Assembly (NCBI GenBank): GCA_902591925.1
Contig: CACJCN010000003.1
Coordinates: forward strand, 1-64,000
Length of the DNA stretch: 64,000 nt
Reading direction: 5' to 3'
Source of the DNA: an uncultured SAR86 cluster bacterium
GTDB taxonomy: Bacteria > Pseudomonadota > Gammaproteobacteria > Magnimaribacterales > D2472
In this document: in pieces, positions 60,703 to 64,000 of the stretch
Layout of the letters: each line of letters starts with the position of its first letter
How positions within the stretch are numbered: position 1 is the stretch's first letter
Position numbers and translations under genes: made by a program
The notes under the pieces: generated by a model
What the model saw: only the letters and a program-made list of their open reading frames with translations
Told to the model about the DNA's origin: nothing
The model's database searches: none

Positions 60703-61518
60703 ATGTTAAATTTTATCTCAACTCCTATTGGTAATTTAAATGATATATCACTAAGAGCAATTGATGTAATAAGAAATTCTGATTATTTGTATTCTGAGGA
60801 TACAAGAAAAGTTCAAAAACTTTTAAAGTTTATAAAAATCAAAGTCAGGTCTCAAAGTTTTTATGAACACAACGAATTGAAGGTAAACAGAACAATCATC
60901 AAAAGATTAAAACAAAATAAAACTATATCTATTGTTTCTGATGCTGGTACTCCGGTTATTTCTGATCCTGGTTACAAACTCATCCAAGAATGTATTAAAA
61001 ATAATATTAAATACACCCTTATTCCTGGTCCATCTTCAGTGATTAGTGCATTGATAATGTCTGGACTTCCAACAAATAAATTTTCTTTTTATGGCTTTGT
61101 CCCAAGAAAAAAATCAGATCAAGAAAATTTTTTTGAAAGTGTTGCGAATGATGAAAAGACTATAGTCTTTTTTGAGTCAACAAAGAGAATAGAAAAAACA
61201 ATTTCTCACTTAATAGAATTTACTGATGATAGTAGGCTTATCTCAATATGCAAAGAGATGACAAAAATTCATGAAGAAACTTTTAGAGGTAAAATTTCAG
61301 ACATTAATATGTTAATACAAAAAAAACAAATCAACATTAGAGGGGAAATTGTGGTAGTTCTTCAAGGTATAAAAAATAAAAATCATCAATTTTTAATTGA
61401 TAAGGAAATAAAAGATAAGTTTTTATCAAAACTCTCTGCATCAGAATCAGCAAAATTAATTTCTTTGATTACAGGTGAAAATAAAAGAGATATCTATAAA
61501 AAACTCATACAAAGTTAA
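60703..61518 (+). CDS. rsmI: 16S rRNA 2'-O-ribose C1402 methyltransferase RsmI
   Basis: A 271-residue tetrapyrrole-methylase-fold enzyme modifying C1402 at the ribosomal P site. FISTPIGNLNDISLRAIDVI, EDTRKVQKLLK, SDAGTPVISDPGY and PGPSSVISALIMSGLPTNKFSFYGFVPRK are characteristic. Length is near E. coli RsmI (286). It is followed by rnpB and mraZ, matching pseudomonads. TAGATT lies 7 bases before the ATG. Confidence 0.96.
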   Translation: MLNFISTPIGNLNDISLRAIDVIRNSDYLYSEDTRKVQKLLKFIKIKVRSQSFYEHNELKVNRTIIKRLKQNKTISIVSDAGTPVISDPGYKLIQECIKNNIKYTLIPGPSSVISALIMSGLPTNKFSFYGFVPRKKSDQENFFESVANDEKTIVFFESTKRIEKTISHLIEFTDDSRLISICKEMTKIHEETFRGKISDINMLIQKKQINIRGEIVVVLQGIKNKNHQFLIDKEIKDKFLSKLSASESAKLISLITGENKRDIYKKLIQS

Positions 61519-61526
61519 AAAATCAT

Positions 61527-61532
61527 TATAAT
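61527..61532 (+). promoter_or_regulatory. -10 box of rnpB
   Basis: A perfect TATAAT immediately after rsmI; six bases separate it from G61539, where helix P1 of the RNase P RNA starts. Because rnpB normally begins at its transcription start, this calibrates the -10-to-start distance in this genome. Confidence 0.65.
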
Positions 61533-61538
61533 GTACTT

Positions 61539-61869
61539 GAGTTGGTTGGATGATCGCTAATTTTTTTAGAGGAAAGTCCGGACTTCATAGAGCAGGGCGC
61601 CAGGTAACACCTGGGAAGCGTGAGCTTACGGAAAGTGCAACAGAAAATATACCGCCAAATTTTTTGGTAAGGGTGAAAAGGTGAGGTAAGAGCTTACCGC
61701 TTAAATGGTGACATTTGAGGCATTGTAAACCCCAGCCCGAAGCAAAACCAAATAGAAATCTTATAAAGTTGCTCGCTTTAGATTTGGGTAGGTTGCTAGA
61801 GTATTATGGCAACATAATATCGAGATAGATGATCATCTTTAACAGAATCCGGCTTATAAACCAACTCAA
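61539..61869 (+). ncRNA. rnpB: RNase P RNA (type A), minimal P3
   Basis: The catalytic RNA that trims tRNA 5' leaders. Conserved segments: AGAGGAAAGTCCGGAC, CATAGAGCAGGGCGCCAGGTAACACCTGG-like P7-P10 region, AGTGCAACAGAAA, GGTAAGGGTGAAAAGGTG, CCAAATAGAAATC, GGGTAGG and ACAGAATCCGGCTTAT. P1 pairs GAGTTGGTT (61539-61547) with AACCAACTC (61859-61867); P2 pairs GATGATC (61549-61555) with GATCATC (61831-61837). P3 is only CTAA/TTAG with a five-T loop. About 331 nt versus 377 in E. coli. A T run follows. Confidence 0.95.
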
Positions 61870-61879
61870 CTCTTTTTTT
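61859..61879 (+). terminator. rnpB terminator (P1 3' strand plus T run)
   Basis: The 3' strand of P1 is followed by AACTC and seven T residues at 61873-61879. There is no extra hairpin, so the terminator probably uses the closing helix of rnpB itself. Confidence 0.45.
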
Positions 61880-61900
61880 ACGTATTTTTTGCCATCCATC

Positions 61901-61947
61901 ATTGTGTGAAAAAGTGTGTAAAAGTGTTGCAAAGTGTGTAAAAAGTC
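61901..61947 (+). promoter_or_regulatory. MraZ operator: 10-bp-periodic GTGTG repeats
   Basis: Aligned in tens: attGTGTGaa, aaaGTGTGta, aaaGTGTtgc, aaaGTGTGta, aaaaGTC. Repeats start at 61901, 61911, 61921 and 61931, one helical turn apart. MraZ binds upstream direct repeats with 10-bp period: TGGGA-type in E. coli, AAAGTG-type in mollicutes; this array matches the latter. It overlaps the -35 and spacer of the mraZ promoter, so autorepression is expected. Confidence 0.75.
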
Positions 61948-61955
61948 TTTATATT
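61927..61955 (+). promoter_or_regulatory. mraZ-ftsZ promoter inside the operator
   Basis: TTGCAA (61927-61932), 17 bp, TATATT (61950-61955). The -10 ends six bases before the mraZ ATG at 61962, so the mRNA would be leaderless. The -35 lies in the third and fourth repeats of the operator. Confidence 0.55.
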
Positions 61956-61961
61956 TTGAAG

Positions 61962-62429
61962 ATGTTTGGATTTAATACGCCATCTATTGATAGTAAAGGC
62001 AGAATAGCTATTCCTGCAAGATATAGAATTGACTTTAAAACTCAGAATCATAATGAAATTGTAATAACAAAAGATCCTCAATATCCATCTATAAAACTTT
62101 ATCATCATTCAGAATGGCAAAGGATTTCAACAAAACTTCAATCACTTCAGGGCTTAGACCCTATCGTTAGAAACTTGCAATGGACGATACTGGGCAATGC
62201 CTATCAAACAGATATTGATATTGAGGGTAGGATGTTAGTTAGAATTCCCTCAGATTTGCAAAACTATGCCCAAATAAATGAACAGAAACAAGTTGCTTTA
62301 GTTGGAATGGGAAATAAATTTGAAATTTGGAACATTAAAAATTGGGAAATGCGACAAACAGGAGGATCTCTTTCGACAGAGATTTTGGATGTTGTACTGC
62401 CTGAAAGTATTAAAGAGATGTCATTTTAA
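61962..62429 (+). CDS. mraZ: transcriptional regulator/division protein MraZ
   Basis: A 155-residue DNA-binding protein with two SpoVT/AbrB-like domains. Start ATG 61962 (MFGFNTPSIDSKGRIAIPARYR); a longer in-frame start would translate the operator repeats. The first swapped-hairpin motif is SIDSKGRIAIPARYR and the second DIDIEGRMLVRIPSDLQNYA. Length matches E. coli MraZ (152). Usually followed by rsmH; here ftsZ begins 8 bp later with AAAGGGGAG as ribosome-binding site. Confidence 0.95.
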   Translation: MFGFNTPSIDSKGRIAIPARYRIDFKTQNHNEIVITKDPQYPSIKLYHHSEWQRISTKLQSLQGLDPIVRNLQWTILGNAYQTDIDIEGRMLVRIPSDLQNYAQINEQKQVALVGMGNKFEIWNIKNWEMRQTGGSLSTEILDVVLPESIKEMSF

Positions 62430-62437
62430 AGGGGAGT

Positions 62438-63550
62438 ATGATGAATTTTGAAGTAGTTGAAACAAAACAAGAAAACGCAAAAATAAAAGTTGTTGGAGTT
62501 GGTGGCGGTGGCGGAAATGCAATACTTCATATGATCAATCATGATATCAAGGGCGTAGATTTTATTTGTGCAAATACTGATACTCAAGCTCTAAAATCTG
62601 TAAAAACTGCAACTACACTGAAACTTGGCAATGGTTTAACAAAAGGATTAGGTGCTGGAGCAGATCCTGACATTGGAAGAAGAGCTGCTGAAAGTGACAG
62701 AATGGCAATTGAAGAATTATTATCTGGTGCAGATATGGTTTTTATTACTGCTGGAATGGGAGGAGGCACAGGAACTGGAGCTGCACCTGTAATTGCATCA
62801 ATTGCAAAAGAATTAGGAGCGTTGACTGTTGCTGTAGTCACAAAACCTTTTAAATTTGAGGGAAAAAAGAGAATGGGAGCTGCAGAGAAAGGACTTGCAT
62901 CATTAGTTGAAGAGGTAGACAGCCTTGTAACCATTCCAAATGAAAAACTTTTTGAAATATTAGGATTAGATACATCTATGCAGGATGCTTTTGCAAAATC
63001 TGACGACGTTTTAAAGGGAGCTGTTCAAGGAATTTCAGACATAATTATGCAAAGAGGTCATGTAAATGTTGACTTTGCTGATGTAAAAGCTGTTATGTCA
63101 GAAAAAGGAATTGCCATGATGGGTACTGGTATAGCAAGTGGCAAGAATAGAGCAGAAGCTGCAGCAACAATGGCTGTAAAAAGTGAATTGTTGGATGATA
63201 TTAATCTTAAAAATGCTAGAGGTGTTTTGGTGAATATTACAGGTAAAGAACCTACTCTTAGAGATCAAGCTGAGGTTGCAGACATCATTGATGATATTGT
63301 TAGTGAAGATGCAAATATTATTTATGGTCTTGTTTTTGATAAAAATTATAAAGATGAAATTAAAGTAACAATTGTTGCAACAGGTGTGGATCAAAGAGCA
63401 CCTTCTTTAGTAATAGATAACGAACCATCAATAAAATTAAATCCTGTTGGTTTGGATAAAGATAAAACCAGTCAAAAAGTTGGCACGTCGTCTGCAGAGG
63501 AAATTGATTTCCTTGATGTGCCGACTTTTATGAGAAAACAAGTAGATTAA
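62438..63550 (+). CDS. ftsZ: cell division protein FtsZ
   Basis: A 370-residue tubulin homolog that forms the division ring. GTP-binding elements: VVGVGGGGGNAILHM, ITAGMGGGTGTGAAPVIA (tubulin signature GGGTGTG) and T7 region NVDFADVKAVM. A 37-residue linker leads to the C-terminal peptide DFLDVPTFMRKQVD that binds FtsA/ZipA/ZapE. ATG at 62438 or 62441 could be used. It lies between mraZ and rsmH, not at the end of the dcw cluster. Confidence 0.98.
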   Translation: MMNFEVVETKQENAKIKVVGVGGGGGNAILHMINHDIKGVDFICANTDTQALKSVKTATTLKLGNGLTKGLGAGADPDIGRRAAESDRMAIEELLSGADMVFITAGMGGGTGTGAAPVIASIAKELGALTVAVVTKPFKFEGKKRMGAAEKGLASLVEEVDSLVTIPNEKLFEILGLDTSMQDAFAKSDDVLKGAVQGISDIIMQRGHVNVDFADVKAVMSEKGIAMMGTGIASGKNRAEAAATMAVKSELLDDINLKNARGVLVNITGKEPTLRDQAEVADIIDDIVSEDANIIYGLVFDKNYKDEIKVTIVATGVDQRAPSLVIDNEPSIKLNPVGLDKDKTSQKVGTSSAEEIDFLDVPTFMRKQVD

Positions 63551-63551
63551 A

Positions 63552-64000
63552 ATGCTTCATTTTCCAGTTTTACTGGAAGAATCCATTGATTTTTTAGTAA
63601 ATGACATAAACGGTCATTACATTGACTGTACTTTTGGCAGAGGTGGACACTCAAAGTTAATTTTAGATAAATTATCCAAAGATGGACTTTTAACAGGAAT
63701 CGATAAAGATCCTGATGCATTTGAATATGCTTTGAAATTTCAAAATGATAATTTCAAGATTATTAATGATTCGTTTAATAACATTGAGAAATACTTTAAA
63801 GAAGAAAGCATTGACGGAATTATCTATGATCTTGGTACATGCTCGACTCATCTTGATCAACCTGAAAGGGGGTTTAGCTTTAATAAAGATGGCCCACTCG
63901 ATATGCGCTTTAATAATAAAAAAGGTACACCACTTTCTGTATGGTTAGAAAATGCCTCAGAAGAACAAATAAGAGATATTCTTTATAAATTTGGTGATGA
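63552..64000 (+). CDS. rsmH: 16S rRNA m4C1402 methyltransferase RsmH (partial, N-terminal)
   Basis: The first 149 residues of RsmH (MraW), which N4-methylates C1402, the nucleotide that RsmI methylates on the ribose. FPVLLEESIDFLV, the SAM motif DCTFGRGGHSKLIL and DGIIYDLGTCSTHLDQPERGFSFNKDGPLDMRF are diagnostic. It starts 1 bp after ftsZ and continues beyond the window edge. Confidence 0.95.
   Translation, partial: MLHFPVLLEESIDFLVNDINGHYIDCTFGRGGHSKLILDKLSKDGLLTGIDKDPDAFEYALKFQNDNFKIINDSFNNIEKYFKEESIDGIIYDLGTCSTHLDQPERGFSFNKDGPLDMRFNNKKGTPLSVWLENASEEQIRDILYKFGD

Follow-up and report, generated by a model that had tools for sequence, protein, structure and literature searches.

Four 10-bp GTG boxes lie just upstream of mraZ in a DNA stretch of 64,000 nt from an uncultured SAR86 cluster bacterium (hereafter the window, i.e. 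the whole stretch that was analysed), and it is very probable that this array is an autoregulatory operator, at which MraZ would hold RNA polymerase off the mraZ promoter. Judged from the sequence, both the regulator and its site are of an ordinary and known type, and the twists lie in one letter of the core, in the placement of the promoter and in the position of ftsZ. As a regulator of cell division MraZ is widespread, and what it does in walled bacteria is unclear; in E. coli, loss of mraZ was without apparent phenotype, as cited in excerpts of PMC8475190. SAR86 is a common, largely uncultured ocean clade of small genomes. A limited literature search found no earlier description of the SAR86 site; parts of PMC5706307 and PMC1185649 matched both SAR86 and mraZ.

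The GTG array and the putative mraZ promoter

The array, the promoter and the neighboring genes of the window are as follows.

61538..61872, + strand: rnpB (RNase P RNA, class A), the upstream neighbor (Rfam RF00010, 322.5 bits)
61904..61913, + strand: box 1, GTGTGAAAAA, at which the conserved block begins (direct reading, TRF)
61914..61923, + strand: box 2, GTGTGTAAAA (direct reading, TRF, conservation)
61924..61933, + strand: box 3, GTGTTGCAAA, unlike the other three boxes and holding the putative −35 hexamer (direct reading, conservation)
61927..61932, + strand: putative −35 hexamer TTGCAA (promoter scan; columns 0.92–1.00 conserved)
61934..61943, + strand: box 4, GTGTGTAAAA, inside the promoter spacer (direct reading, TRF, conservation)
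61950..61955, + strand: putative −10 hexamer TATATT (six columns all 1.00 in 26 loci)
61962..62429, + strand: mraZ, 155 aa, presumed repressor binding the array (PF02381, 68.3 bits, cut-off 23)
62438..63550, + strand: ftsZ, second gene of the presumed operon (PF00091, PF12327)
63552..64000, + strand: rsmH (mraW), extending past the window's end (PF01795; complete in the window's genome)

The window belongs to family f1; families f2, f3 and f4 are of the same order and were therefore counted as SAR86. The 69 f1-type loci comprise the window and 68 public loci with 62–97% MraZ identity, from which L100 (no upstream part) and L102–L104 (not SAR86-like, 32–39% identity) were excluded. Most MraZ-bearing relatives are titled SAR86, some only Gammaproteobacteria or Proteobacteria. 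Identities were calculated over 26 ungapped loci, the window and 25 close relatives, L057 being excluded for its many N.

As originally read, the units start at 61901 (ATTGTGTGAA), 61911 (AAAGTGTGTA), 61921 (AAAGTGTTGC) and 61931 (AAAGTGTGTA) with an exact 10-bp period, and TRF reports a tandem repeat at 61904–61943 with period 10 and 4.0 copies. The four repeats described in an earlier note on this DNA are thus present, with their start displaced: identity at 61901–61903 is 0.46–0.56 (26 loci), the conserved block begins at 61904, and the unit is therefore better phased as GTGTGNAAAA. All four 10-bp units contain a GTGT core; the GTGTG core that had been assigned to them is correct for the other units and not for box 3, in which the core is GTGTT. 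With four boxes, the window's array belongs among MraZ operators, for which three or more GTG boxes spaced by about 10 bp are required before mraZ. A period-10 run of four GTGT was found once in the window and not at all in 2 Mb of Markov-1 random sequence. In the window's genome (1.2 Mb, 93% complete), GTGTG-N5-GTGTG has a single occurrence, and AAGTG-N5-AAGTG is found at three further places, all within long open frames; for a wider regulon, no second intergenic box pair was obtained with these two exact patterns.

The array lies over the −35 hexamer and the spacer of TTGCAA-17-TATATT, as the earlier note had proposed, and the −10 hexamer ends 6 nt before the mraZ ATG. It is the sole σ70-like site in a scan of 61500–62000; as 1.7 such sites are expected in shuffles, the scan by itself is no evidence. 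The placement of the promoter comes from the 38 of 69 f1-type loci in which TATATTTT is present. In these 38 loci the −10 is downstream of the array, at 6 nt (27 loci), 7 nt (10 loci) or 2 nt (one locus) from the ATG. A −35-like hexamer is found in box 3 at a spacing of 17 nt, with a mean match to TTGACA of 3.87/6 (38 loci), other spacings giving at most 3.0; the −35 is assigned with modest confidence.

Since the −10 hexamer is only 6 nt from the ATG, the mraZ mRNA is probably leaderless. A general leaderless habit was considered from the window's genes and not adopted: a −10-like hexamer (5/6 matches) exactly 6 nt before the ATG was found in 2 of 25 operon-leading genes of the window, mraZ included. 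A Shine-Dalgarno-like motif is present upstream of only 9 of the 58 predicted genes of the window, so that starts without a leader or without an SD motif may be frequent in this genome. No publication combining SAR86 with leaderless was found in a limited search.

Conservation of the array and its absence together with mraZ

When the upstream regions of relatives were aligned, as the earlier note had suggested, mean pairwise identity was 0.96 for 61904–61945, against 0.416 for the 31-nt flank 61873–61903. Identity was 0.935 in the −10 region (61946–61957), fell to 0.48–0.62 in the final four bases before the ATG, and was 0.592 at the third codon positions of mraZ (26 loci in each case). These sharp bounds indicate that a block from 61904, the G of box 1, to the −10 is under strong selection. 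A degenerate fifth repeat, claimed previously, is not borne out: in 61941–61950, G61945 is kept and 61946 varies (0.37), so that no conserved GTG box is formed there.

Alternatively, the block might be nothing but a strong promoter in which A-tracts are in phase (an UP-like element or curved DNA), the GTG period being a by-product. It does span both the −35 and the −10 and is conserved as a whole, and AAAA recurs at 10-bp phase within the array units. However, conservation of the GTG cores is close to that of the promoter hexamers (26 loci), mraZ loci across the class have similar GTG arrays with the promoter elsewhere, and ftsZ of family f4 is preceded by a promoter-like hexamer yet by no array. 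The A-tract explanation is therefore very unlikely, and we return to the array as an MraZ operator.

At least two in-register boxes were present in all 84 SAR86 mraZ loci counted, and at least three in 82; a relative keeping mraZ without the repeats, which would have spoken against the operator, was not seen among these 84. A three-box GTG pattern in register was found in 68 of the 69 f1-type loci. By the chain rule, 67 of the 69 have at least three boxes and the other two have two, and chains of at least three GTG are present in 15/15 loci of f2/f3. The distance from box 1 to box 2 is 10 bp in 68/69 f1-type loci; for boxes 2 and 4 it is 20 bp (36 loci) or 21 bp (32 loci). The 10-bp period, exact in the window, is accordingly not universal in relatives. 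Box 3 or its surroundings can accept an additional base, which would fit a role of this box more in the promoter than in MraZ binding. Two loci may be mentioned separately. In L056, box 2 is altered (ATGTG) and no clean box 2 remains, boxes 1, 3 and 4 being intact. L098, a contig with the title Opitutia bacterium IN48, has mraZ and array of the SAR86 type and is probably a mis-binned or mislabelled record.

In the order-wide sample, MraZ was found in 115 of 151 genomes, more than the 84 loci counted above. Of the 36 MraZ-negative genomes, 20 were listed (14 of f4, 4 of f1 and 2 of f2), and PF02381 had no match in any of the 14 f4 genomes listed. Twelve of these 14 have an ftsZ match, 11 with a readable upstream region (L142–L152). 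At all 11 loci the box chain is absent upstream of ftsZ, the ftsZ ATG lies 24–25 nt past a conserved rnpB 3'-end motif (rnpB identity Rfam-confirmed at 3 of the 11), and rsmH follows ftsZ. The hexamer TA(A/G)A(A/C)T is found 6 nt (10/11) or 7 nt (1/11) before the ATG, giving a leaderless-looking start. Since neither PF02381 nor boxes are found in f4 while rnpB and ftsZ are kept, gene and array are absent together. The mraZ-less family is one lineage, so the joint absence counts as one event, not many. Further SAR86 genomes negative for MraZ (G003, G008, G028; G012, G100, G154, G162, G057, G081; completeness 71–89%) were taken as assembly gaps. An RsmH tree did not date the mraZ loss against the ftsZ move, the position of f4 in it being weak (77/70).

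It is barely conceivable that another regulator controlling mraZ binds the array, for the array is missing together with mraZ, the GTGTG-N5-GTGTG pair is confined to this one place in the window's genome, and the site type is that of the published MraZ sites of mollicutes and Burkholderia, according to parts of PMC5282649 and PMC7761207. The array is tied to mraZ on both sides of the comparison, with mraZ in 84/84 loci and without it in 11/11 readable f4 loci.

MraZ and a putative switch at the head of a presumed operon

The protein encoded at 61962–62429 matches PF02381 in two stretches, as two tandem half-domains. Its predicted model, built from 34 aligned sequences (pLDDT 82), has the MraZ fold, with Z of 17.3–18.7 against the five MraZ entries listed and 4.8 in the next row. 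Z was 18.1 against 9sz7, titled MraZ with a 4-box promoter of M. genitalium, and 17.3 against 9r4j, MraZ with its promoter. FliM, CheC and similar folds scored below 5 and were taken as chance.

Binding, the oligomeric state, repression, the leaderless start and operon transcription are what we infer from these data. A ring-shaped MraZ oligomer would contact successive GTG cores, which at a 10-bp period face one side of the helix. Bound MraZ would cover the −35 and the spacer, and RNA polymerase would be kept off a promoter whose start should lie at or beside the mraZ ATG. When MraZ is scarce, the promoter would open and mraZ, ftsZ, rsmH and the FtsL-like and FtsI-like genes would be made, until newly made MraZ shuts the promoter again. 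Direct repression of mraZ-ftsZ by MraZ may thus fairly be inferred. Box 3 could reconcile the demands of a GTG box with those of the −35 TTGCAA; RNA polymerase alone would be reason enough for the conservation of this box and of the promoter hexamers.

At this site MraZ may instead activate, or switch in both directions, for example by contacting polymerase from boxes 1 and 2. Activators also bind just upstream of the −35, where these two boxes are located. In M. gallisepticum, MraZ overexpression was accompanied by more FtsZ, as cited in a part of PMC8475190, so that the direction of regulation need not be the same in every species. However, boxes 3 and 4 lie on the −35 and the spacer themselves, which favors occlusion, and MraZ of M. 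genitalium represses its own cluster, deletion having raised the cluster (same source, in part). Either of these roles is unlikely on this evidence, and repression by occlusion remains our preferred reading.

The order of genes in the window's genome is mraZ, ftsZ, rsmH, an FtsL-like gene (below the Pfam cut-off) and an FtsI-like transpeptidase gene, with ftsA about 14 kb downstream. A PF00590 gene, which we take to be rsmI-like, is found near the window's end in the same region as rnpB and the array. In the canonical dcw head rsmH stands directly after mraZ, as it does in E. coli; the window departs from it, ftsZ being placed between the two. One f2 and one f3 genome have mraZ, rsmH, other genes, then ftsA and ftsZ (loci compared: window, L140, L141, L162, L163). 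Since ftsZ follows ftsA in these two genomes and is second in the window, the window's family has it at an unusually short distance from the operator.

Comparison with mraZ upstream sites elsewhere

A search of the class gave 242 matching genomes, and 107 non-SAR86 loci were read (L201–L307; 27 returned and 80 taken roughly by rank, some skipped), a choice that is biased to MraZ nearer the query. At least three boxes are present in 95 of these 107 loci (0.84% in shuffles). In their later boxes, GTG is followed by G in 259 of 287 cases, by T in 21 and by C in 7. In the 69 f1-type loci the following base is T in 149 and C in 17 of 166 cases and never G, so that they do not belong to the E. coli-type subtype, which has a GTGG core and an array running downstream from the −10; in f2/f3 it is T in 27, C in 8 and G in one. 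TATAGTG was found within 200 nt upstream in 83/107 of the other loci, and TATA directly precedes the first chain box in 63/107 (0.05 expected in shuffles), against 5/69 f1-type loci. A TTGACA-like hexamer lies 18 nt before TATAGTG (mean 4.27/6; at most 2.12 at other spacings from 8 to 29). In this arrangement a box forms the end of the usual promoter, and the array continues into the transcript. The window lacks this fusion of −10 and box 1 and reads ATTGTGTG.

The earlier note had set a TGGGA-type site of E. coli against an AAAGTG-type site of mollicutes, and remarked that a gammaproteobacterial locus here carries the latter form. The contrast was overdrawn, and AAAGTG as a mollicute form foreign to gammaproteobacteria is not supported. 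E. coli K-12 has GTGGG boxes in the same register; an E. coli box, too, reads AAAGTGGG, and the third K-12 box, at 10-bp phase, is CAAAGTGGGAA. In later boxes of the 107 loci, the two bases before GTG are most often AA (158/298, in a count whose register may shift by 2 within GTGTG). For mollicutes the consensus is (AAAGTGKN3)3, where K is G or T, and it spans both forms (Fisunov 2016, as quoted in a part of PMC5282649). These E. coli boxes and the published consensus rule out the dichotomy. Boxes 2–4 of the window fit the consensus and box 1 (ATTGTGT) does not. As far as the sequences go, the true SAR86 difference is narrower: T (or C) for G after GTG, plus the placement of the promoter.

SAR86 MraZ differs from the others in an insertion after the second GR motif (window 62226–62237), present in 90/90 SAR86 rows, two residues long in those listed, and in 0/107 others; M. 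pneumoniae MraZ is likewise without it in the alignment. Some genomes are represented twice among the 90 rows (e.g. L175 and L200), and the partial L100 stops short of Arg3. Arg3 itself is R in 100/107 others and a gap in every SAR86 row that reaches the N-terminus. Its loss as the cause of the GTGT box is weakened as an explanation by L302, which has Leu there yet GTGG boxes. AT-richness as the cause is not favored either, since L276, with the lowest G+C (0.28) among the loci listed, keeps AAAGTGG; in that G+C comparison 28/108 loci were dropped by the start-finding rule, and the 107-locus box counts were taken from match coordinates.

It is possible, and we put it forward tentatively, that SAR86 has rebuilt the MraZ switch, with a specificity changed from GTGG to GTGT along with the two-residue insertion, the promoter moved and ftsZ brought to second place. 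If so, the promoter would have left the upstream edge of the array for the downstream one, MraZ would occlude the −35 of a leaderless mRNA, and the dose of FtsZ would answer first to MraZ. SAR86 offers clean comparisons in this respect, between families with mraZ and array and a family with neither, through a one-letter box change across the sampled order, and through a promoter shifted against the same operator. With contrasts of this kind, short DNA and a single small protein would suffice to test specificity and how repression works.

Compared with known systems, the SAR86 operator shares with that of mollicutes the 10-bp AAAGTGT units in several copies at the mraZ promoter. It differs in its phylum, in a box 1 without the AAA prefix, and in having, at 32 of 69 loci, one base more from box 2 to box 4; the SAR86 cells also have FtsI-like and FtsA genes. 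Mycoplasma MraZ reportedly binds a motif in which the GTG spacing differs by 1 nt (PMC5282649, in part). The operator of Burkholderia cenocepacia likewise has four GTG repeats in a 10-bp layout (7-nt repeats with 3-nt spacers), for which a gel shift is reported, but it sits past the −10, where it overlaps the transcription start, and the position downstream of the −10 is stated for E. coli as well (PMC7761207, in part). E. coli and other gammaproteobacteria also carry 10-bp GTG boxes just upstream of mraZ; theirs are of the GTGG type with TATAGTG, whereas those of f1-type SAR86 are GTGT or GTGC, with the −10 after the array where it could be resolved.
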